Source: Hexactinellida sp. DTS-2022
Taxonomy: Eukaryota > Porifera > Hexactinellida
DNA: 64,000 nt
Reading direction: 5' to 3'
Assembly (NCBI GenBank): GCA_028753945.1
Contig: JAPNXP010000002.1
Coordinates: forward strand, 2,790,001-2,854,000
A model generated the notes under the pieces. That model saw nothing but the letters and a program-made list of their open reading frames with translations. It searched no databases and was not told the DNA's origin. Made by a program: the position numbers and the translations under genes. This document shows, one piece after another, positions 4,885 through 60,157 of this stretch. Numbering within the stretch: position 1 is the first letter of the stretch; each line of letters starts with the position of its first letter.

Positions 4885-5375
4885 TTAAAGTGTACGGTTG
4901 TTGGTTCCATTTTACTCAGCGTATTTGGATGAAGACACAAAAGCTAGCACTTAGCCAAGGTTTTAGAAATAACCACGAGATAACCAAATACTCTATTAGC
5001 ACAACTGATGGCGATTCCCTTTTTGCCTCCATCACTAATCAAATCCCTAAATTAGAACAGACAGAAATGGTAAAGGTCGAAAAATTGAAGAAATACTTTC
5101 AAAAACGCTGGTTTAGTCACATTAAACCGGAAGAACTTTCAATCTAGAAAATAATATTACAACGAATAACTCAGCAGAGAGTTATCATTCAAAATTAAAA
5201 TCAATTACAAAGACTGGTCATTCTCGAATATGGACATTTGTCAATACACTCAATGAAATCATACAGGATATTGATAATGATATTGGTCGTTTACCCAAAG
5301 GTAGAGAAATAAATCTGCCAAGGAAAAAGAAAAATATTAAATATGAAGAGCATAGAAATCTCTTGAAACAAAATT
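4885..5375 (+). pseudogene. C-terminal half of MULE transposase
   Basis: Reads VYGCWFHFTQRIWMKTQKLA followed by LSQGFRNNHEITKY, the conserved block of the MULE DDE domain around its zinc ligands. After a short break comes NSAESYHSKLKSITKTGHSR and a basic tail RLPKGREINLPRKKKNIKYE, both characteristic of the end of FLYWCH-MULE proteins. The frame ends in the TTAA element that starts at 5,378. Confidence 0.85.
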
Positions 5376-18219: not shown

Positions 18220-19808
18220 GGTCCAGGTATACTCTAGAAAAATGGAAAATTTCGAAAAAAACCCAAAAAAGGTCTTTTTCGTTTTTATTGTATTTTTGGA
18301 TTGTATTGATATCCATGTGTACTCCCAAGAAATTTCTAAGAAAAACTCCATATATCTTTCAAGTTTGACACATTTTCGAGACCTCGTCTCTGATAAATAA
18401 AAAAATTAAAAAATTAAAAAATTAAAAATTAATAAAATATTAATTTAAAGGGAAATTGCTGTTGGCACAGGTGTAATTTTTGATTTTAGTTAGTTCAATA
18501 TAAGATTTATTTTAGAATAATTGCAAATACAAATAAAATTGCTTTTGGTACAGGTGTAATTTTTGATTTTAGGTAGTTCAATATAGGATTTATATAGGAA
18601 TAATTGCAAATACAAATATAATTGCTTTAGGTACAGGTGTAATTTTTAATTTTAGGTAGTTCAATATAGTATTTATATTGAAATAATTGCAAATATAAGG
18701 GAAATTGTTGTCGGCACAGGTGTAATCTTTGATTTTTGGTAGTTCAATATAGGTTTATATTGGAATAATTGCAAATATAAAGGATTTTAATGTCGGCACA
18801 GGTGTAATTTTGGTTTGGTAGGTAAATATAGGGATTCATATACGAATAATCAAAATACAAAGGGAATTACTGTCTGCACAGGTGTAATTTTAGACTTTTG
18901 GTAGTTCTATTTGGAAATTTTATGGAAATAATTGCAATTACTACGAAAATTCTCTCGGCACAGGTGTAATTTAGAATTTTGTGTTCAATATAGGGATTAT
19001 TGAGGAATAATTTAAAATTGAAATTGAAATGAACACTATTGAATGCGCAGGGCCGTGGTTATTGGGTGGAGAATTAGATTGGGATCCCAATAGTGCTCCT
19101 ACCAATTGTGGGGTCACGTCAACTTGGTGTTGGGTGAAGAGATAAATACCAAACTGGGAGGGAGAACGGAAGTGGCTTTGGAGGTGCAAGTGGTTGTGGC
19201 GGCGGCTAATTCACTTCAATACACATAGTGAGTTAGAATTTGAATGAACAACGTGAATTTACTAGTTTACCTCCTCTATACTTTACCTAAAATTTTATAT
19301 TCATATTTCAAAAGCCTATATCTCAAAACTAACATTTTCAGTTTTGTGTAATAGGTCATTTTGTCAATTTTGGTCGTGGAATCAAAAGCTCAACGGTTTC
19401 GGATAGATCTCGTGAAGATACAACTAATGATGCAGCGATTTATTCTATTATGGATAGTTCATGTGCTTTTTGGCTTTTGGATCAGGAAAATCTTCATTTG
19501 AAAGTCGACATCACATAAAAGTATTTGAAATCCAGAAAAATCCAGATATTCACAATTCCTGCACTCATTAGATTTATTACATCCAGCTAAACACATTCAA
19601 TCAATAATATTATTGGTCTTGTTCATCTTTGCTGATTGATCTTCTACCCAATAGTGGTAAAATTAAAAAAAAGATTTTTCCTCTCTTAGTGTTTATGCCA
19701 ATATTATTGTATTTTTGGCATCCTGAAGAAGAAGTATATACGCTGTAAAAAATTGAGTTAAATTGGGTAAATACTTTTGGTAGAAGTGCTCTAGAGTATA
19801 CCTGGACC
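18220..19808 (+). mobile_element. TTAA-flanked element, family T1 copy 3, expanded by an internal minisatellite
   Basis: TTAA at 18,216-18,219 and 19,809-19,812, ends GGTCCAGGTATACTCTA / GAGTATACCTGGACC. The family is ~700 bp elsewhere. Here about 880 extra bp (18,380-19,260) sit in the middle: a TTAAAAAA microsatellite, the 85-bp minisatellite and a short GC-richer piece. Family sequence resumes at about 19,265. Confidence 0.85.
18440..18990 (+). repeat. Minisatellite, ~85-bp unit, about 7 copies
   Basis: Each unit contains GGCACAGGTGTAATTTT (variants GGTACAGG, TGCACAGG), then TAGTTCAATATAGG and AATAATTGCAAATA. Unit starts fall near 18,457, 18,549, 18,632, 18,713, 18,795, 18,880 and 18,958. 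Located inside the T1 element. Confidence 0.85.
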
Positions 19809-19814
19809 TTAAAA

Positions 19815-20460
19815 GCCTAGCCCATTCGTGGGTAATGACGATCGCTTTTCTTTTTTGAGGGAGTTGTCTATTGGTTAGAACTTAGAAGCCTGGAGATAAC
19901 AACCTGGAAAGGAACGAAAATTATGTCTCCAAACTTTTACAAGCTTTGACATGCTTGTGTTGCGTTACCCCAAATAACTAACCATCTGGTAGAAAATTGT
20001 GGATTTTCTTATCTCTTAACATTTTTCTTACAGACAGACCCACTAGAGCACCATTTCGGTCTGCATCGTTTAGTGTAATGATAATAGTATAATGTATATT
20101 ATTGTATCTTGTTTAAGAAAATGTATAATACATTAATGTATGTTTTCTACTTAACTATTTCATAGATTTATACCAAATTTAGTAATTATTGTCCAGTCCA
20201 ATCATTAGTGATATTAGCTAATTCATACAAGGAAGGGGTATACGACAGTATTTTTATTTACGATGGACACAATTACTTAAAATAAATATAGCCACTTAGT
20301 TTATCTATAATTCAGCTTGCAATCGACTTAATTTAGATTTTACGAATCCATCTTCGACCGAATCCATGGTCCAAAATTATCAAGTTACTGTGGGGCATTA
20401 TGTATAGTAGGCTATGACTATTGGTTATTGACCCTTAGGAATCCATTTCTTCAGATAGAT
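19815..20460 (+). mobile_element. P-element relic A (3' part)
   Basis: 20,030-20,080 reads LQTDPLEHHFGLHRL, matching LLQTDTLERHFGLYRM of the better P element on the minus strand at 54.0 kb. DNA at 19,930-19,990 matches 36,225-36,260. A non-coding tail at 20,375-20,440 (ATGTATAGTAGGCTATG) is shared with the tails of copies B (27,310-27,390) and C (37,520-37,590). Everything upstream of the transposase C-terminal domain is missing, and the left edge abuts the T1 element. Confidence 0.75.
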
Positions 20461-20569
20461 TTATTGTGTTCCCACTTTTTTTCAAGTTATGGTTTTATAA
20501 TAAATTTTTATATAATTAATGTGTTGTGCTTGTTTAATAGTTAATCAACAATGTTATGTAATAGTGATT

Positions 20570-21142
20570 CTAATAAATTCTGTTCTGCCGTGTTGTCATG
20601 ATGTTTTCTATAAGAAAAGCGACAGAAATGATTGATTGCGCCACCAAAATTACATTGGGAACTTTGCGATATTTTAATAAAACAGAATTAATTTCACTCA
20701 AAAGAGGTACAAAGACATCACTAATGTTTGAATTAAAACAACATTTTCTTGAAATATACGCTCGATAGTTTCCAATCAACTTATTACAAGCCTCTAAAGC
20801 TTCTTCAGAATATGGTTTCATACCATATCCATCATTACAGCTTAGTATGAGTTCCACACTATGTGCTAAGAGTTTATGGAGAGAGGGAGTGACATTTACA
20901 CACGGGAATTCGACGACAATAAACTCGTATGTATATTTATAAATGTTGTCCAGTTTATTTGTGTGAATTGCCTTGCCACAATTAAAGACTCGCAGAATAG
21001 CTGAAAGATTGAGATGTATTAGTTTGATTGGTTCTCTTGATTCTAATGATATTAAAGTTGATACCCATTCAATGAAATTGTTCTTACCAGTAAAACATGA
21101 CAGAGCAACATTACCAGTTGATGTTGTTCCTCCAGCCCTCAA
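20570..21142 (-). pseudogene. RAG1/Transib-like transposase, C-terminal part with catalytic Glu
   Basis: 190 codons. Starts inside a GGTTSTGN motif. Residues ~44-60 read NLSAILRVFNCGKAIHTNKL; ~87-94 SLHKLLAH give H-x4-H (H89, H94). Then GYGMKPYSEEALEACNKLIG, where E117 (codon at 20,792-20,794) in E-A-C-N-K corresponds to the E-S-G-N-K catalytic Glu region of RAG1, followed by NYRAYISRK. This H-x4-H then Glu about 20 residues later is specific to the RAG1/Transib fold. The frame then runs to a stop at 20,570. What precedes it (IDQVL) continues upstream in frame, with KWAQTSKRIQDSMKFVRE recognisable near 21,160-21,230 in another frame. Confidence 0.8.
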
Positions 21143-21294
21143 TACCTGATCTATCTTTATCCAAGTTTTTTCTAGTAGAATTCACGTACAAATTTCATTG
21201 AATCCTGGATACGTTTCGATGTTTGGGCCCATTTATAAGTTCCAGATTGTAAATCTTAGATTACCAACATAAACCATCGAAATATGCACATGTA

Positions 21295-21558
21295 TTAGTG
21301 TAGAGGGGATGCTGATATTATATCGATATTAGAAATTGGTTCATGGGTTAAACCAAATCTTTCTTTGGAGGGTAAAGAGAGGAAATCTTCTTTGTCAACT
21401 GAATCGATTATAAGCTTAGCATCTGATATGGACCTGTTTATTGGGTAGCAAGCACGGATAAAATCCAAATCTTTTAATTGATCAAAGTGTGTACTACACA
21501 ACTGACAACTGGCCCCACCTGCACCTGATAATATCGCGGACATTTTGTCATCCAACAT
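21295..21558 (-). pseudogene. RAG1/Transib-like transposase, second Asp and C-x2-C segment
   Basis: Reads MLDDKMSAILSGAGGASCQL + CSTHFDQLKD. The Asp pair at residues 3-4 (codons 21,547-21,552) fits the second catalytic Asp of RAG1 (GYDEKLVREVEG), and CQLC fits its following C-x2-C zinc ligands. Further on ACYPINRSISDA and EPISNIDIISASPLH align by eye with the RAG1 core (RSNPYHES..., VPSIDALHCD). The segment is in frame with the upstream one across a single TAA, and downstream continues after another stop as YMCIFRWF. Confidence 0.8.
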
Positions 21559-21564
21559 TATTCG

Positions 21565-21866
21565 TTATATTTCGACGAAAATCTTACCATTAGGGAGAAT
21601 TATTCCTTCTTTTTCAATTAGTGTAACTTCAGGATTGATAATTGTATCTAAAATGAACTCAACATTCTCTTCATTTTCCTTCTGGAAAATCATTGAAATA
21701 GACCTCACTCCAAATGGAGAATTTGGAGTTTCGTTCTCCAACAGTAACGTGCCAGAAACATCTTTTAATGACAATTTAAAGGCAACTAGGATGTAATTTT
21801 GGGTATTGAAAGTTGGACTACCATGTTGTTGGTTATATATTTTATGAGAGCCTGATCCATCTAGTC
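21565..21866 (-). pseudogene. RAG1/Transib-like transposase, first Asp segment
   Basis: Begins LDGSGSHKIYNQQHG, with the Asp codon at 21,859-21,861, equivalent to the DGMGDVSEKHG first catalytic Asp of RAG1. Then TFNTQNYILVAFKLSLKDVS and a hydrophobic/acidic stretch to the stop at 21,565. The coding direction enters directly from the hAT insertion: the 8-bp duplication overlaps the Asp codon, which is GAT in this copy and AAT in the other. Confidence 0.8.
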
Positions 21867-22986
21867 CAGAGGTTGTCATACATTTTAGGCCGCGGGCCAA
21901 ATTGAATAAATGCAAGGTTGCAACCGAATAGTTGACCGAATAGTTGCTTACCAATTAGCTAAGAATCGGTAGCTTACCCAAATTCAGGTTTATTGGTTAT
22001 TTATTAACCCTGATGTATTTACCTCACTAAATAAAAGCATTTGGCTCACCTGATGATAATATTTTGCTAATCTGATATTAGTATTCGGTTGACAAATAGT
22101 ATTATTCGGTTGACCGAATAGTAACATTTGTCAACCGAATACTAACATATATTCAACAAAATATCATTATCAGGTGAGGCAAATATTTGTAATTGTAGAC
22201 ATGGATATATATGCGGTCCAAAATGACAAATAACACTGGGTTTCGGTAAGCGACCGATTCTTAGCTTTTCGGCAAGCAACTATTCGGTAAACTATTCGGT
22301 TGCAACCTTGAATAAATGTCATAATTTTGTTGGGCCTGAGAGTGAACTTTTTCTATTTAACACATTTTGATTTGATTTGCAGTATCAATAATGGAAAATA
22401 AACTATGATAATGAGGAAGTACGTGAAAATTAATTTAATGACACATTAAGAAGAATAAAGAACTAGTGGAAGTTGTACAGTTGATTCTGCGTTTTTAATA
22501 GCTTATCAAAATTTGGTTCTCTGGCTGAAGTAGCAATACACAGGGATTCCTGTACAATAAAATTTTGGCCATTCTGTACTAGCGTACAGGGATTTATTCC
22601 ATTTATATAGGGAATTTTAATTTACTAATTATGAGTAAATAATGCCTAAAATGTCACAGATGTGATAGTATATTCTGCCATGCATTCTTCATTGGCTACA
22701 TACAGGCACAACGTTGTTTCTATATTCATTTAAGTGTATAGAAATTGCCTGAACGAGCGAGCGCAGCGAGCGAGACATTTTTTGGGAGGCGTACAGGGAT
22801 ATTGGCCAATGTACAGGGGGAAATTGGATCCCTGTACAGGGATATGATTCAAATAGGTTGGCAGGTATGCTTTATGTGGCCCAGACTACCAAAAATATGT
22901 ACTTCTGTTGAGGTCAAGCGGTCCGGTTAAATATCGTAGGCGGGCCGGAGCCCTACGGCCCGCGGGCCATAGTATTCCCACCCCTG
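21867..22986 (+). mobile_element. hAT-type element inserted in the RAG1-like gene
   Basis: Ends CAGAGGTTGTCATACATTTT and ...ATAGTATTCCCACCCCTG, with GC-rich subterminal GGCCGCGGGCC near both ends. Flanks ATCTAGTC (21,859-21,866) and ATTTAGTC (22,987-22,994) form an 8-bp duplication with one change. It contains a younger hAT element (21,913-22,310), a CGAGCGAGCGCAGCGAGCGA patch at 22,752 and repeated TGTACAGGGAT motifs. No transposase. Confidence 0.9.
21913..22310 (+). mobile_element. Palindromic hAT-type element, family H1 copy 2, nested
   Basis: Ends CAAGGTTGCAACCGAATAG / CTATTCGGTTGCAACCTTG. Perfect 8-bp duplication AATAAATG at 21,905-21,912 and 22,311-22,318. 398 bp, self-complementary almost throughout. 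Youngest of the three layers here (transposase, outer hAT, inner hAT). Confidence 0.95.
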
Positions 22987-22994
22987 ATTTAGTC

Positions 22995-23530
22995 CATCAG
23001 ATAATTTGAGTGTTAGTAGATAAACAAACTTAATACTTTCATTAATAGACTCCAACAAACGTACAAAAATCTGTGGTGTAATAACACTCTGTATGAGATG
23101 GCAATCCCGAATACTATGTTCATCAACAGGAGTTGATATGAATTTTAGAACATTAGTGAGCACAATTTGTGATCGATATTCAGAAATGTCATTATATGTA
23201 GGGGAAACAAAGTTCTCAGTCTTACAAAGCCGACGAAGCTCATTGTATTTCCGTTTACCAATTTGAAGGTGGTCAATAAGAAAAAAAGACTCGGGTAAAG
23301 GCATATGTGACAAAGGTTTGGAGAAGGTACCGGAACGAATGATTTCTTTACAGATTATTGGAACTTTCTTATCACAAAGCTCGTTTGATATCAGTACAAT
23401 ACGTAACTAGCTATAGTTTTCTTATCAGTTTCTTCTTTGTTGGGTATAATATCAATCAGGTTTTGAAGTGAAAAAGACGAGTTCTTAAATCTTTCAGTCT
23501 AAGTTTTGAGAAAGGTTTTTTGTTTTCGTG
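22995..23530 (-). pseudogene. RAG1/Transib-like transposase, N-terminal part
   Basis: The frame at 22,995-23,313 reads from SHMPLPESFFLIDHLQIGKR through YNELRRLCKTENFV to ESIKFVYLLTLKLSDGL, which runs into the hAT duplication just before the first Asp. It extends upstream in the same frame to about 23,390 (ELCDKKVPIICKEIIRSGTF), and a further block, SSFSLQNLIDIIPNKEETDK, lies in another frame to about 23,530. This corresponds to the region before the DDE core. I do not see a RING or other N-terminal RAG1 domain, so either it was absent or it is lost left of the TTAA element. Confidence 0.65.
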
Positions 23531-23570
23531 AGACAAATGGATTTCTAAGATGGTATTATCTTAAGGGTGC

Positions 23571-23700: not shown

Positions 23701-24170
23701 CTATTTTTTGAGTAGCATTAAATAATTTAGGAATTGCCTCCCCATAGGGGTAATGCTGTTTTATAAGATTTCAATGTATTAATTCTTATAAAATATATTC
23801 AATAGAGCTCCAAAAATTTGTATGATTGATCAGTAATATTAGCACTACATTTGCTTAGCTCACCAGACGCCTATCCTAGTTTAACCAATTCTTAACTGAC
23901 GAATCCTTAAATTCGTCAAAGAAGAGGCCAGAAAGTGGTATTTTTGCTCCTTGCATGGTCTCTACTCAGACACTAATCATTAGTTTGGTTCAATGAGCTT
24001 GCAAAATGATCATTATACTATTAAGATGTTTTTGGATAGAACAATATAAAGTGAACAAGCATTGAAAATTTCAGCTGAATCTGACTCATACTTTTGACGT
24101 CGCACACTTTTTAGTGCACAGGAATGTGTGCATCATCATCAAAAGGTCATTTTTCAAATGGACGATCATA
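23700..24170. other. AT-rich stretch; holds partner of the 1,075-1,205 repeat
   Basis: 23,905-24,040 is the inverted partner of 1,075-1,205. No gene otherwise. Confidence 0.5.
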
Positions 24171-24174
24171 ACTT

Positions 24175-24497
24175 TTGGTCTAGATTTCACAAATTTGGTT
24201 CAATATGTTTGAAACCAAGAATAAATGAATGAATACATGTTCCTTTATAGAATTACGTTTATTAACACTTCCGACAAAAACTTTCACAGTTACAGCTCTT
24301 TGAAGTCAGATTTCTACTGCAAACCAAAAACATTTCGTTGTCTGGCATTCGAAGACTGACTTCAGAGGGCTGTAACTCTGAAGGTTTTTGTCGGAAGTGT
24401 TGAAAAACGTGATTCTATATAGGTACATATGTATTCATTCATTTAAACTTGGTTTCAAACAAATTGAACCAAATTTGTGAAATCTAGACCAAAAGTT
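24175..24497. repeat. Large imperfect inverted repeat, ~160-bp arms
   Basis: Left arm TTTGGTCTAGATTTCACAAA at 24,176 pairs with TTTGTGAAATCTAGACCAAA at 24,475. Intermediate blocks (ACACTTCCGACAAAAAC / GTTTTTGTCGGAAGTGTT, and GAAGTCAG / CTGACTTC) pair in the right order. The centre is near 24,340. Non-coding. Confidence 0.85.
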
Positions 24498-24499
24498 AA

Positions 24500-25550
24500 T
24501 ATGGTAGGTTTATACATACACCACTATTTTGCATCAAATCAAGTGAATTTATATGTTTGTAACTATTTTGCAAATGCTTTCGTCCGTTTTTCATAAGAGT
24601 TAGTAATAGTACATAGATGTGAATACAAAGTTAGTGCTAAGCTCTAGCGTTTATAGTTTTCGAGAAAAATATTTGCTAAATCATCAAAAATGGGCACATT
24701 CTAAACCCATATATGGTCATTTGGAAAAATTGTGCGAGTTAGGGTCACAAAATGTATTATGAAGGGATAGGAAACCGGGTATTGCGAGCCTTTTGAACTA
24801 AAATTTTCTTTATTGGCCAACGGGTTTCTGAGATTCAAAATTGAAATGTGAAAGGACCACCCAATGAGTTGAAAGGTCAGAAAGTTTTAATTGCTAGAGC
24901 GTTCACAGTTTTTATCCAAATTGTCTGAAACCAAGTGTAAACTATTGGATATATATTTAATTTAGGAATGACCCCTGATCTAGACTTTACAATGCAAACT
25001 TTCAGAGTTAAAGCCATTGGGAGTCAGACTTGGCACATTGACAGTCCAAAACTGACTTCAAATGACTATAACTCTGAATTTTTATTTTGAAATATTGAAA
25101 ATTTGGTTTTACGCCATAAGTATATATGCAAATATACTAATGTATGAATAACAACGAAATTGGATGTACAATATGGGAGTGCCAGCCTACAAAGTTTTTA
25201 ACCCATTTGAAAAAGTCACCCTCCATGATGTCCATCACATTCCTGGAGCTTATAAAGGTCGCTACAGCAAAACTATTGGTCAGATTCACTTGAAATTTGA
25301 AATGTAGGTAAATTTACATGGTACTATCCAAAAACAATCGAATCTCAATTTATCTGACGAGCATTGTGGTGAAGTAATTTCTACTTTCGTCCGAAATTGG
25401 CAATATAACCAAAAATACCTGGTTCACAGAGCCCTACTGACTTCAAATCGACTCAGAATTTTGAAAAAATTGCCAGATTATTCACCAGTGTGAAACAAAC
25501 AGGAAAACGAATTTAACTCAATTTCTCAAATGCAGTATAGTTTGGCCTTA
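24500..25550. other. AT-rich stretch without a gene
   Basis: Carries R1/R3-like motifs (ATATATGGTCATTTGGAAAA, GGGTCACAAAATGTATTATG near 24,710-24,760). At 25,000-25,100 an inverted arrangement AGTCAGACTTGG...AACTGACTTCAAATG resembles the 24.2-kb palindrome, so these may be diverged relatives. No coding signal. Confidence 0.45.
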
Positions 25551-25589
25551 AGCTTAATTAACATCACCTACATACTTTAATTAATAAAT

Positions 25590-35934: not shown

Positions 35935-37640
35935 TTTTGCAGATGCTATTGTGTGATTGTGTTATAAGATTAGAGTACAATATATCCCGACGGAAGGTAA
36001 AATTGTGACGGACTGGGATGTTAAACAAGTTATGTACTTTATATGGCGTATGCTATTTAACATGCCCTATAAACATGTTCGTTTGAATGATCCTATGTCT
36101 AAACCTCTAACATTTAATGATGAGCGATTTATCTTTCTGACACGAATTGTTTATTGGTTAGATGCTTGGCAGTCACTGCCCGAGAAAGGTGGTAAATTGA
36201 GCAAACAGACATTACATGCTTAAAACATGCATGTCTTGTGTTACCCCAGATAACTAATTTCAAACAGAGACCTGTTGTTATTCCTACTTATTAACATCAT
36301 TCATAAAGACAAACCCATTAGAACACCATTTTGGGCTGTATCGTATGATGTCAGGAACAAATTACCATGTTTCCTATCTGCAAATCTTAGAATCAGAGCG
36401 CCGTCTTAAAGTATCTAACATCCTAAGCATGTTTTCCAGTCAAACTGTTTCTAGCACATCTTCTTTTCAAGAGTTCATTCACTCTTTTTCATCTTTGGAA
36501 GGTGCAGATTCTAATAACGATTTTGACCTAGATCCATTCTTGCATGCAATTCCAGATCTTTCTGCTATTGAGTGTAATATACAGGTACTTCAATCCTTAA
36601 CCTTTATTGCTGGCTACTCAGTACACCAATACTTAAAACATAGTCAGCCTTGTCGTATTTGTCGGGATATCTTAACTTTTGATAGGGATCTACTTGTCGA
36701 TGAACCCTCTACTCTATCTCAATAGAAACACATAGAACTCTCCGATCGCGGAGGATTGAAATACCCATCTGAGGTAGTCCTAGAATCCATTGTTACTGCT
36801 TGGAAGATCCTAATCTGCATTGAAAATGATAGCGACCTCATGCCGGCGTTTGTCAAAGGTCCATCAAGGAAAATCATAGTTAATCTAACCTTGAATGTAA
36901 TTTTAGAAGCCGATTATTGCCAATCGTGGAGAAAGGAATGTCCATCTTGTATTGTAAGTGGTTTCTATAATCTTCAGAAGCTTATATTTGCAGCTGGGAA
37001 TTGTTTTTTAGCTAATATGGTAAAAATTACAACTCAATGGTAAATTCCAGAGCAACGGAGAAGCGAAAATTTAAAAGATTTCACTGACCAAATGTATTCT
37101 TATTACTTTTCTTTGTTTATATTATGCCGTTCCTTTGTTTATGTTTTTTGATTCATGTTTATCTTCATAATAGAATATTAGAGTAGACGAGTACAAAGTA
37201 GACGACTTGGAGAGGGAAGCTGATATTGGAAAGATGTTATATAGAAGTTCAATGAAAAACATACGTCCTGATATAGAGTTTATATTACTTTTTGTGAATT
37301 TATTTGAACACAGTATTGTTGTGTAATATGTTATCCTTATTTGTATTGTTAAATAAAGTATCAATTCTCAATGGTAGTATTAATATAAAGTAAGGGGGGG
37401 TGGTAAACTGAAATATCAGTGTCTAAAATATTTACTACACCTTGAATCAATGAAGGCATTACATAGTTGGTTTATTTAATAATACTTGGAATTTAACATG
37501 TATATCGGCTAATGCATCCCTGGTCCAAATTCCACAAGTTACTCTTAAGCATTATGTATAGTAGGCTATGGTTCAACTAACTATTCACTGGATTAGTAGT
37601 CCAACTAGGGCCGGCCTTTAGGAATATACCCCAGAAACAT
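35935..37640 (+). mobile_element. P-element relic C (C-terminal half and tail)
   Basis: Transposase pieces at 35,957-36,223, 36,345-36,725 and 36,756-37,043, then a non-coding 3' tail with ATGTATAGTAGGCTATGG at 37,553. THAP and catalytic N-terminal parts are absent. Collinear with the minus-strand copy D and with the tails of A and B. Confidence 0.85.
35957..37043 (+). pseudogene. P-type transposase, C-terminal half, copy C
   Basis: First frame: FNDERFIFLTRIVYWLDAWQ, matching INDERFLFLTRIVFWLDAWQ of copy D. Between frames the DNA still encodes the HACLVLPQITNF-like block and TNPLEHHFGLYRMM, which contains the Glu equivalent to the last DDE residue of P transposases. Second frame: SGTNYHVSYLQILESERRLK through FIAGYSVHQYLKHSQPCRIC, with a CRIC cysteine pair. 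Third frame: a helical C-terminal segment with WRKECPSCIVSG. At least two frame breaks. Confidence 0.85.
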
Positions 37641-53804: not shown

Positions 53805-54221
53805 CTATTCCATCATCACTAGATGTATCAGAGGGGGTAGAAAAAGACTTACAAATGTCTGAATCGTTTGGAAAGCGTCTTGTTGGTCTGCAAACATGTT
53901 TGATATACTAGAAATTTTAAGACGACGCTCGGTTTCAAGAATCTGAAGGTAAGAAATATGGTAATTCGAACCCAACATCATACGGTAGAGTCCAAAATGG
54001 CGTTCCAACGTGTCAGTTTGTAAAAGGGATGATAATACATAAGAAAAGCCACAGTTTTCAGTTAGATGGTTAGTTATAAGTGGTAAGGCAGTACAGGCGT
54101 GTCTAAAACAAGTATACGCTTGCTTACTCAATTTACCCGTTTTGTCAGGTAAATCCTGCCAAGCATCTAGCCAAAATACTATACGTGTCAAAAATAAAAA
54201 TCGTTCATCGTTTATGATCAA
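53805..54221 (-). pseudogene. P-type transposase, C-terminal region of copy D
   Basis: 138 codons. INDERFLFLTRIVFWLDAWQ, then HACTALPLITNHLTENCGFS, LLQTDTLERHFGLYRM and GSNYHISYLQILETERRLKI. The Glu in LERHF sits where the last acidic catalytic residue of P transposases lies (inference from family). Its C-terminus is lost into AT-rich sequence at 53,805. Confidence 0.9.
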
Positions 54222-54480
54222 CTGTCTTGAGAGGCTATCATTTAAACGGGTCCCTTTGAACGGCGTATTGATATTGAATAAGAAGGATACTCACGAAACT
54301 AGATGTATTATTACGATACTCCGGACAACGACTTTCACTTTGGACTTCAAGAGCAGATAGTTTAAGTTCGCTAACAACCTTCAAAACCAATTTGACATTT
54401 TGCCTTTCTAAACTAGATGGAAAACAAGCTTTTACAGTCAAGTGAGGGGCTAGTTTTGCTAAACTGTATCGTTCAGAATT

Positions 54481-56845: not shown

Positions 56846-56944
56846 TAATAGTTAGAAGTGAATAGCAACAGTAAGTGGACAAGAAAACTACTTTTACAAA
56901 CTTTCAATAAAAAAACTTACAGAATTAGGTAACTTTAAACTAAA

Positions 56945-58701
56945 CAGCAACGACAGACCGAGTATCTATCAATCCTCCCAGGACGGACCACGCGTGTCCG
57001 ACCCCTCCAAGTGGGACCTCCAGTAATTCATCGTCGAACACAAACAATCCTGGCTCAGAACGTGCTGTCTCCGTAAGTGTCCTGCTACCCAATAAACGCC
57101 GACCCAAATCCCAATGCACGATATGTGGATCAACTCACTCTGTGATAAAAGGGAGACTCATTACGCATGGTCCACTCACTAATCGATGTCCAGGCAGTGG
57201 GACAAGTAACTACTCTACACTAAGCCCCGACACCCAGTGCCCAGCAAATAGTCCCGTTCGGGCCATTCCCAGACTAGTAGCAAACTTGCTAAAGGCAACT
57301 CATTACAACACCCCGAATTTTAGATGGGGGGCGCTAGAAGGAGAGGTCTTTGCTACTGCAATTGAAATGGCACAAAACGAAGTGGTGCACTGGAGAAGAA
57401 ACATATTCTCGGTACCCTCTGGAGTTATGGGCAAACGGTATATAAGAGAGATGACCAGACTTTACGACGCACTCGCAGAGAAAACCGCGCTGGAGCCGAT
57501 AGCTATGAGCGCTGCAACCGTACTCCCCATACTACTTCTGCAAAAGCCGCACCAAAGATCGAAATCAAAAGAACATACCAGCTGTTTGACAAGACGTCTT
57601 GAATCGTGGCTGAAAGGAGATATCATCGAACTACTCAATGAAGGCCGCACAATCCAAAATCGCTTAATAGATATGCAGAACCTAGCGAAGAAGAAGGATA
57701 AACTTGAGAAGAGATTTGCCAAACTAATGCTCGCTGGAAAAATACATACAGCATTCAAGCTGCTCTCAAGCGAGGAGGACGGGTTGGGAATCCTACCCCT
57801 CAACACGACCATCACTCAAGGAGAAGGGGACAGAACGTGGAACAGTACAGTCAAGGAGATTCAAGAAAGCAAACACCCGGCCGCTAGCGAAATGCTCCCC
57901 GAGGCAATGGAGCCCAATCTCGATCAGAAAACTAATGTTCACCCAGTTATTTTTGAAAGTATAGATGGAACCTGCATTCGATCAGCTGCTTTGTACTGCA
58001 GTGGGAGTGCAGGCCATTCTCAGATAGATGCAGATGCATGGCGAAGACTGTGTACATCTTTCAATATCGCATCTACCGACCTTTGTAACACACTTGCGAA
58101 ATTCGCAAGGAGACTATGCACTGAGGATATTGACCAAAGTGCTCTCAGATCCTTTCTAGCATGTAGGCTTGTTCCACTTGACAAGAACCCAGGAGTGCGC
58201 CCCGTCGGAATATGTGGGGTAGCACGTCGAATAATCAGCAAGGCCATTCTTAAAGTTATCGGGAAAGATATACAGGAAATAGCCGGAACATTACAACTCT
58301 GCGCAGGTCAACCAGCAGGAATTGAAGCTGCAATTCACAGCATGCGCCAAACATACGAGGATGAACGAAGCGATGCTCTACTTTTAGTTGACGCATCGAA
58401 CGCGTTTAACCAACTAAATAGACGTGCTGCCTCATATAAGACAAGAATATTATGCCCTACACTAGCACAAGTACTACAAAATATCTATGGCAGCCCAGCA
58501 GAGCTATACACAGGTGGGGAAACATTATACTCGAGGGAAGGCACGACGCAGGGCGACCCCCTCGCAATGCTAATGTATGCCATTGGTACACTTCCCCTAA
58601 TTCGCAAACTGAAACGCGCTCAGGCAAAACAAGTTTGGTATGCAGATGTGCCACCTGCGGAGGCAGGCTACAGCGAGTCAAGGCATGGTGGGACCAGTTA
58701 A
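56945..58701 (+). pseudogene. RLE-LINE protein, N-terminal zinc finger and reverse transcriptase
   Basis: Open from about 56,945, so the GTG at 57,142 is not the start. Residues before it include CTICGSTHSVIKGRLITHGP and RCPGSG, a C-x2-C ... H ... C finger. Then a helical domain (ALEPIAMSAATVLPILLLQK), and RT motifs: KNPGVRPVGICGVARRIISK, LLLVDASNAFNQLNR (motif A Asp), REGTTQGDPLAMLMYAI (motif B) and VWYAD (motif C). A 2-bp deletion directly after YAD at about 58,648 shifts the frame; the second Asp is the lost residue. The remaining 17 residues to 58,701 are out of frame. Confidence 0.9.
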
Positions 58702-59335
58702 ATAAAGCTGGTCCTACATTTGGATACCTGCCAAACTCGAGCAAGACATGGCTTGTCGTAAAAGAAACGAAGAAAGCTGAAGCCGAAGCAATTTTCAACG
58801 GGACCGGGATCAACATCACCTGTCAAGGAAGAAAACTACTCGGTTCCGCCGTATGAACAGAAGCTTTTGTACGATCTTACGTGGAAAACAAAATTGATGC
58901 GTTCAGATTAGAACTCTCTAAAATAGCCGAGATAGCCAAAACACAACCTCCTTCAGCATACGCTGCCCTTACGCATGGAGTATCTGCGAAATGGCTGTTC
59001 ATTAGTAGAACCACACCGAGCATAGCAGACTTATTCGCCCCGCTGGAGCTAACCATCCAAGAGCAGCTGATACCAAAAATGACGGGAGGGATACAGTGAA
59101 CCACCAGGAGCGTAAGATTATCGCACTCCCTATACGCCTAGGAAGACTTGACCTAAATTTCCCTACACTGACCTCAGATCTGGAATATAAAAACTCGCGC
59201 CTAATATCTTTCCCATTAACTGAAAAAATTATCGCACAGGAGGAGAACTATACAGAAATCCGGATGAAGTTCGCAACGCACAACTGGAGATGCATAAGAC
59301 GAAACGCTTTGCCGCCAAGACAGCATCACTAGAGT
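58640..59335 (+). pseudogene. RLE-LINE protein, RT thumb and connector
   Basis: After the shift: ATCGGRLQRVKAWWDQLNKA, GPTFGYLPNSSKTWLVVKET, a TGA at 58,854-58,856, then TEAFVRSYVENKIDAFRLEL and the ...IQEQLIPKMTGGI block. Frame changes near 59,097 lead to MNHQERKIIALPIRLGRLDL and NSRLISFPLTEKIIAQEENY, and another near 59,285 leads on. All are standard for this LINE type between RT and endonuclease. Confidence 0.85.
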
Positions 59336-60157
59336 TGAAATCTCGGCAGAATGAAAAAGGACAGCGAATGCTAGAACTCGCATCTGAAAAGGCCGCCTCA
59401 AACTGGTCAACGACAATTCCCTTGGAACGCTACAATTTCGACTTGCATAAAGGTGCTTTCCGAGATGGCCTAAGCTTAAGATATGGATGGAAACATAAAC
59501 ACCTACCGTCCCTTTGCGCATGTAACCATCCGTTCTCGGTGGATCACGCTTTCTCCTGCCCGATAGGCGGGTACCCAATAATCCGCTACAAAGAGTTAAG
59601 AAACCTCACCGCGGATCTCTTACGTAAAGCAGGATGTAGGGATGTAACAGCAGAACATGTACTACAAGACCTTGAAGGAGAGAGAATGGCCTACAGCACA
59701 GCCAACACTCAAGACGGAGCACGACTCGACGTTCGTGCAGCCGGCTTCTGGGGTGGACAGTTTGAACGAGCATTTTTTGATGTAAGGGTTTCCAACCCAT
59801 ACGCTCCGAAAAACAGCACCACACAGATGCGCCAGGTATACCCGTCACACGAAATTGAGAAAAATCGGAAATACCATCAAAGAGTAATAGAAGTGGAAAG
59901 AGCCTCTTTCACACCGCTTATTTTCTCTGCTACTAGCGGCATGAGCAGAACAACAACAATTGTGTATAGCGGGGATGATCGCGGAAAAGCTAGATCAATC
60001 CTACTCCATCACCATGAATTGGATAAGGACCCAACTATATTTCTTCCTAATACGCTCAGCAGTCATGTGCTTGCGAGGCAGCCGCACAAGGAGAAGAACA
60101 ACCCCGGAACAACCAACAGATCTAATCACGGCTGAGAGCAGATGTGGGGTCTACTAG
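59290..60157 (+). pseudogene. RLE-LINE protein, CCHC and restriction-like endonuclease
   Basis: 281-codon frame. CACNHPFSVDHAFSC at about 59,515-59,560 is the C-x-C-x7-H-x4-C zinc motif that precedes the endonuclease. Then GARLDVRAAGFWGGQFERAF and FDVRVSNPYA, whose Asp residues form the PD-(D/E)xK-like active site. FTPLIFSATSGMSR follows. A last frameshift near 59,960 moves the true C-terminus to 59,960-60,157: MIAEKLDQSYSITMNWIRTQ and IRSAVMCLRGSRTRRR. Confidence 0.9.

Follow-up and report, generated by a model that had tools for sequence, protein, structure and literature searches.

The 64-kb window of DNA analyzed here, the whole of positions 2,790,001 to 2,854,000 of contig JAPNXP010000002.1 of the glass sponge Hexactinellida sp. 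DTS-2022 (64,000 nucleotides; G000:C11:2790001-2854000 in our indexing), carries on its minus strand a dead, decayed copy of a DNA transposon of the Transib/RAG1 superfamily. Read jointly with its sister copies in the host genome and their likely mode of working, this relic very probably belongs to the RAG1-only Subgroup I Transib kind, whose published sequence traits, namely asymmetric ends, an alpha11-alpha12 region and a CTT1-like tail, the sponge family appears to fit. The live-looking sisters show one unbroken reading frame of ~710-750 amino acids (aa), CACAGTG terminal repeats, 5-base-pair (bp) target duplications and, as a rule, one short and one long end. We also put forward, tentatively and with slightly less than even confidence, that this RAG1-only sponge transposase obeys a working two-spacer rule, under which CACAGTG followed by a second motif at ~11 bp and CACAGTG followed by the motif at ~20 bp would each be required once.

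The relic in the window

A sequence-only reading had described a RAG1/Transib-like transposase relic at 20570..23530; the relic spans slightly more, 20417-23562, and the quoted peptides with the catalytic Asp, CQLC, H-x4-H and Glu were all recovered on the minus strand where that reading had placed them. The parts of the relic are as follows.

20417..23562, minus strand: full extent of the transposase relic, which apart from the insert is 93-94% identical in DNA to sister copy L046
20570..21181, minus strand: C-terminal fragment with the ZnH2 pair HKLLAH and the catalytic Glu (peptides, PDB match)
21295..21564, minus strand: second catalytic Asp, C-x2-C and RAG1-like alpha11-alpha12-type region (region named by alignment)
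21565..21866, minus strand: first catalytic Asp and the RNase H-like segment after it (alignment)
21867..22986, no strand assigned: hAT-like insert (termini CAGAGGTTG / CAGGGGTGG; duplication of 8 bp, ATCTAGTC/ATTTAGTC; site unoccupied in L046)
22987..23406, minus strand: fragment upstream of the first Asp, at the position of DDBD/PreR (placed by alignment to RAG1; the domain names are those we presume to apply)
23400..23562, minus strand: remnant of a nonamer-binding-domain (NBD)-like stretch (KPFSKLRLKDLRTRL ...) (profile/alignment)

Placed by eye, the catalytic codons are those of the first Asp (21859-21861, in LDGSGSHKIYN), the second Asp (21550-21552, in MLDDKM) and the Glu of EACNK (20792-20794), with the zinc-pair codons at 21505-21507 and 21496-21498 (Cys of CQLC) and at 20876-20878 and 20861-20863 (His of HKLLAH). 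A 203-aa piece of the window spanning H-x4-H and the Glu matched solved HzTransib (6pqn) at E=6.9e-5 in a PDB search, a resemblance greater than chance would give; the remaining broken pieces gave nothing useful alone in Pfam and PDB searches, with two weak unrelated matches only. Against the window, the relative P0026 showed identities of 57%, 54%, 36% and 41% for its residues 268-506, 479-670, 135-270 and 66-109, respectively.

Two features went beyond what the sequence-only reading had seen. The gap between the transposase segments is a 1120-bp insert at 21867-22986, for which L046 retains the empty site at 5325-5365; the termini of the insert suggest a hAT element, a label that we assume from these termini together with the 8-bp duplication. 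Furthermore, at 20417 and 23562 similarity to the sister copies breaks off and gives way to other repeats, which means that the element has lost both of its ends. The loss takes in the N-terminus and the terminal repeat on the left, and approximately the final 74 bp, terminal repeat included, on the right. The terminal sequence CACAGTGG was not found anywhere in the 64-kb window. Stops in its reading frame show the copy to be dead, and its C-terminal zinc motif is broken.

Within the insert, 21910-22313 forms a near-palindrome with arms of 201 nucleotides that are 77% complementary. Close to the relic lie a tandem array at 18453-19012 (83-bp unit, 6.8 copies) and, at 24020-25558, a repeat of ~1.5 kb that contains inverted repeats; its relatives are located inside two split sister copies, L047 (87%) and L048 (74%).

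Sister copies and mobility

A copy search of the host genome (112.4 Mb, 18 contigs) gave 459 candidates, 150 of which were scored, with all 150 listed. Open frames of at least 700 aa with no stop in the match were present in 13 of the scored loci, and a 14th (711 aa) shows a TGA. Twenty loci were fetched, chosen for long frames or for closeness to the window copy; both ends were seen in 15 and not in L042, L047, L048, L049 or L050. The two-ended elements measure 2.9-3.8 kb, apart from one of 6.1 kb that carries an insert, and in 12 of the 15 the frame is full-length, at 711-749 aa counted from stop to stop; in L036, L045 and L046 it is broken. As the sequence-only reading had said of the window, there was no sign of a RAG2-like partner: none was found in the 15 elements, where every frame longer than 126 aa is a piece of transposase. 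A genome-wide Pfam search for RAG2 returned 0 matches and is uninformative, as its control matched nowhere.

Two of the copies, L031 and L032, share 99.8% identity across 2784 bp, have different target duplications and lose all identity at their termini, their flanks being unrelated. The family has been mobile recently and has several intact-looking genes. Across ten families, all 45 pairs gave proportions of synonymous differences (pS) of 0.73-0.85 vs nonsynonymous (pN) of 0.21-0.44; silent sites are saturated and the protein is constrained, a pattern of long-term selection on the protein. Such protein-level selection across families would also be expected if the window locus or a sister had been domesticated as a host gene. 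We consider this highly improbable, since the sisters are repeated and have terminal repeats, target duplications and unrelated flanks, and the window copy is interrupted by stops and by a nested insert; for the window copy itself the stops refute it.

In three overlapping protein searches (25, 64 and 119 matches, the third run from an alignment and scoring only the 7995 candidates that shared most words), every match that carried an organism name was from Oopsacas minuta, a hexactinellid sponge, which points to a glass sponge as host; most matches bore no name. Relatives were not found in scans of the collections of other genome contigs and of viral contigs. The O. minuta protein LOD99_10084 (P0058) is 83% identical to that of L044 (L044 4015-6195), closer than most host-genome families are to each other.

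Terminal repeats and target duplications

The earlier reading had proposed looking for further copies with CAC-starting terminal repeats and 5-bp duplications, and both were present in the sister copies. In a first end search, with an inverted repeat plus a 5-bp duplication as its sole requirements, CACAGTGG ranked first, alone or tied, in 10 of 15 loci. The ends recovered begin with the V(D)J heptamer, CACAGTG. Later ends were picked by CACAGTGG (one mismatch was allowed in one search; L053 reads CACATTGG), so the constancy of the eight end bases is partly an artefact of selection. Ten further end pairs were fetched, with both ends visible in 5; these 5, the first 15 and 10 short ones hand-picked from the 32 short/long pairs described below made 30 end pairs. 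An exact adjacent 5-bp duplication was present in 20 of the 30, and another 6 match over 5 bp once 1-4 additional bases on one side are allowed for, compared with 1 exact case and 34 with extra bases in a control of 870 mismatched flanks.

The extra bases between the duplication and one terminal repeat (L036, L045, L063/L064, L079, L085 and L087) adjoin the short-spacer end in four cases and the long-spacer end in one, the sixth being ambiguous; imprecise cleavage carrying flank bases could account for them. A suspected link between base 9 of the ends and the presence of the C-terminal zinc tail described below was ruled out by L038, L041 and L009.

Two spacer classes and their pairing

The left and right ends of an element match best when shifted by 9-10 bp, with a mean identity of 0.56 at +9 over 12 distinct families, same-family duplicate rows (L031, L033, L035, L053/54, L055/56, L063/64) having been dropped; the maxima of shuffled sets averaged 0.33 (standard deviation 0.015), and none of 2000 was as high. 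The peak fell at 9 or 10 in 9 of the 12 families and, with two families added and a 10-base window, in 13 of 14 (1000 shuffles: mean 1.7, maximum 6), the exception being L038. Ends taken from different families gave shifts of 8-11 in 69% of pairings with a weaker match (7.4 vs 8.9 of 10), from which it follows that the two ends of each family share their own version of the motif.

Searched genome-wide, the pattern CACAGTGG-N{3,33}-GGAARTAGG gave 544 matches and its reversed-pattern control 0. By spacing, 199 of the sites had N of 9-11 and 338 had N of 18-20, with 4 at 12-17, 3 at 21-40 and 0 at 0-8; counted from the end of CACAGTG, 537 of the 544 thus fall into a short class of 10-12 bp and a long class of 19-21 bp. 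Pairing was counted on contigs C1 to C5:1.49 Mb, which hold 167 sites, 3 sites of other spacing being left out. Here 35 adjacent pairs faced inward no more than 7 kb apart, and 32 of them joined a short with a long end; shuffling the labels gave a mean of 16.9 and a maximum of 27 such pairs, and 0 of 10000 shuffles reached 32. Pairs within one family are not independent of each other, and the same pattern was seen across the distinct families. Only 0.9-1.8 kb separates the ends in 23 of the 32 pairs, and these are presumably non-autonomous elements, being too short for a transposase gene.

Judged by its homologues RAG1 and Transib, the transposase would hold the distal motif with its NBD-like part at the N-terminus and nick at CACAGTG with its DDE RNase H domain, which includes a C2H2 zinc site. 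The element would then be freed via hairpins on the flank, one dimer would synapse a short end with a long one, and once free these ends would attack target DNA 5 bp apart. Lacking RAG2, the transposase alone would have to enforce the short/long pairing, and the short elements with the same ends presumably moved in trans.

The transposase and its affinities

A profile of 50 relatives searched against the PDB matched HzTransib best (6pqn, E=9e-47), followed by amphioxus RAG1L (6b40, 4e-18) and vertebrate RAG1 (1e-17 to 3e-15), with the short RAG1 chain 3gna at 0.006. The catalytic Asp, the Asp with C-x2-C, the H-x4-H and the Glu all fall in the same alignment columns as in RAG1 and Transib, with nearly invariant zinc-pair residues, and the C-x2-C and H-x4-H pairs form a putative zinc site. 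These profile matches and shared columns bear out the proposed membership of the superfamily. Pfam RAG1 was found in 31 of the 50 relatives (E up to 0.01), the sole family matched by more than one of them, with one weak unrelated match besides; NCBIfam gave nothing for three transposase proteins. Elements of the CMC type also begin with CAC, and this is the sole point toward another DDE superfamily such as CACTA, Chapaev or hAT, the outcome that the earlier reading had said would count against it. Given the Pfam result and the fit of the 5-bp duplication and CACAGTG ends to RAG/Transib, we regard such an origin as scarcely credible.

In a tree built from three references and 24 sponge-type proteins, the latter formed one clade (97/96) and, with HzTransib, were separated from RAG1 plus RAG1L at 100/100, the reference branches being very long. 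The sequence-only reading had put the element closer to Transib than to true RAG1, which agrees with these scores and with the tree and its three long-branched references. It had also assigned the element to the lineage that gave rise to the V(D)J recombinase; superfamily membership stands, and ancestry of RAG1 is not borne out, the element being a cousin on the Transib side.

Three RAG1-like traits bear on which kind of Transib this is. Between the C-x2-C and SPLH blocks the sponge profile has ~48 positions vs 13 residues in HzTransib, with RAG1 and RAG1L also longer there; the alpha11-alpha12-equivalent region was recognized by sequence alignment only, which is gappy at this place. N-terminal slices of nine proteins gave 18 PDB matches at E up to 1, 16 of them to RAG1 chains, including the 96-residue 3gna (0.0014), which we take to be the NBD-nonamer crystal, and a nonamer-binding-like nature of this stretch is modestly supported. 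Lastly, a C-terminal zinc motif of the type C-x2-C-x4-H-x5-C, resembling the one known from invertebrate RAG1-like proteins, was present in 34 of the 50 loci rows, a count that takes in redundant copies.

Were the element an ordinary Subgroup II Transib, these traits would have to be convergent. Its best pairwise PDB match is indeed HzTransib, a Transib and not a RAG1L, but the longer stretch after C-x2-C, and the lack of a C-x2-C-x4-H tail in HzTransib as far as residue 472 of 497, make this improbable. A somewhat less improbable alternative, though still an unlikely one, is descent from a true RAG transposon (RAG1L+RAG2L) whose RAG2L was lost in sponges, the RAG1-like traits being inherited. 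The alpha11-alpha12-type (RAG2-contact) region, the frequent Cx2Cx4Hx5C tail and the RAG1-like NBD stretch would fit this, and an origin of Transib from RAGL via loss of RAG2L is proposed as an alternative in PMC7204232 (this and the other papers cited here being represented by the available parts of their text). However, the closest solved relative is HzTransib and not amphioxus RAG1L, the tree splits the two groups, and PMC9435367 takes the same traits as ancestral. We favor a Subgroup I-type Transib.

Several observations weigh against this assignment or the element structure that it presumes. Three of the 35 facing pairs are not short plus long; on inspection by eye, each of the two long/long exceptions has ends that differ in sequence and may not be one element, and the short/short one joins similar ends. 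No exact adjacent 5-bp duplication was present in 10 of the 30 end pairs, 4 of which had none at all. At E about 0.001 the match to the NBD is a modest one, with no Pfam RAG1 match for the N-terminal slices, and the C-terminal zinc motif was not found in L037, L040, L042, L043 or L044 and is partial or decayed in others. The references in the tree are three, all on long branches and none of them from Subgroup I, and the window copy is without ends, its element structure being drawn from the sister copies.

Comparison with known systems

Subgroup I Transib was described by Tao et al. 2022 (PMC9435367) in terms of asymmetric ends, the alpha11-alpha12 region and CTT1. As far as that description goes, its members and the sponge family have in common RAG1-only coding, asymmetric terminal repeats, an alpha11-alpha12-equivalent region, a CTT1-like tail and an NBD-like stretch; its members are from ctenophore, hydra and others, whereas here the host is a sponge, the ends number in the hundreds and read CACAGTG, and the zinc tail was not found in several families. 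The words 'sponge' and 'Porifera' do not occur in the main text of PMC9435367. Where present, the sponge tail is one residue longer than the CTT1-type tail published as Cx2Cx3GHx4C (PMC7204232).

AanRAGL of Aureococcus (PMC9435367) likewise has two-part asymmetric ends and 5-bp duplications, and its second element is offset by 9 bp between ends (spacers of 4/13 after a 13-bp element), compared with 9-10 bp in the sponge family; in contrast, it carries RAG2L and its ends read CACACCCAAACCT, not CACAGTG. The RAG1L+RAG2L pair of RAGL transposons was not seen in the 15 sponge elements. HzTransib (6pqn), the closest solved structure, has the DDE, C-x2-C, H-x4-H and GTT..GN.AR block in common with the sponge proteins and differs in the 13 residues mentioned above and in ends described as symmetric (PMC8289069). 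ProtoRAG has CACTATG and spacers of 27/31 (PMC8289069).

The vertebrate V(D)J signal has the same heptamer, CACAGTG being its consensus in PMC8289069, and its RAG1 system resembles the sponge family in the succession of heptamer, spacer and second motif, in two spacer lengths used one each per pair, and in an NBD-like stretch. It differs in that the sponge motif GGAARTAGG is unlike the nonamer ACAAAAACC, that the spacers are about 11 and 20-21 (10-12/19-21) and not 12 and 23, that no RAG2L is found in the elements, and that the sponge family is a mobile element and not a receptor-gene recombinase.

The kind of element is thus already known. Within the literature searched, what appears new is the lineage in sponges, how numerous it is, and the pairing statistics gathered at genome scale on ends that carry the vertebrate heptamer. 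No literature linking Transib or RAG1 to hexactinellids was found, a description elsewhere (e.g., Repbase) being possible, and Transib and RAG1 are unmentioned in the available main text of two glass sponge genome papers. Autonomous Transibs typically occur in one or few copies (PMC4411706), to which the host sponge genome is an exception.

The family bears on how the paired 12/23 V(D)J signals arose. Invertebrate RAGL has been proposed to be relatively insensitive to asymmetry (PMC7204232); 12/23 asymmetry is described in a few Transibs and, in jawed vertebrates, is recognized only when RAG1 works with RAG2 (PMC8355894). A RAG1-only family with the exact heptamer and two spacers whose pairing has very few exceptions in the part of the genome examined, from a sponge group near the base of animals and with enough ends for signal statistics, offers a natural and testable system for RAG2-free asymmetric synapsis. 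If the two-spacer rule is true, 12/23-type asymmetric synapsis, vertebrate heptamer included, would be older than both the recruitment of RAG2 and the vertebrates, and a single genome would hold a record of it in its hundreds of natural ends.

Other features of the window

Neither an Rfam nor a tRNA scan found anything in the window. At 56944-58701 a 585-aa frame matches reverse transcriptase (PF00078, E=1.2e-8) and is followed by a 303-aa frame at 59224-60135 with no Pfam match; the local GC content is 0.43-0.47 at 56-60 kb. Two further frames, at 36258-36725 on the plus strand and 53805-54290 on the minus strand, also had no Pfam match and are alike by eye (HFGLYRMM..NYHxSYLQILExERRLK); we presume these to be pieces of a P-element/THAP9-type element.

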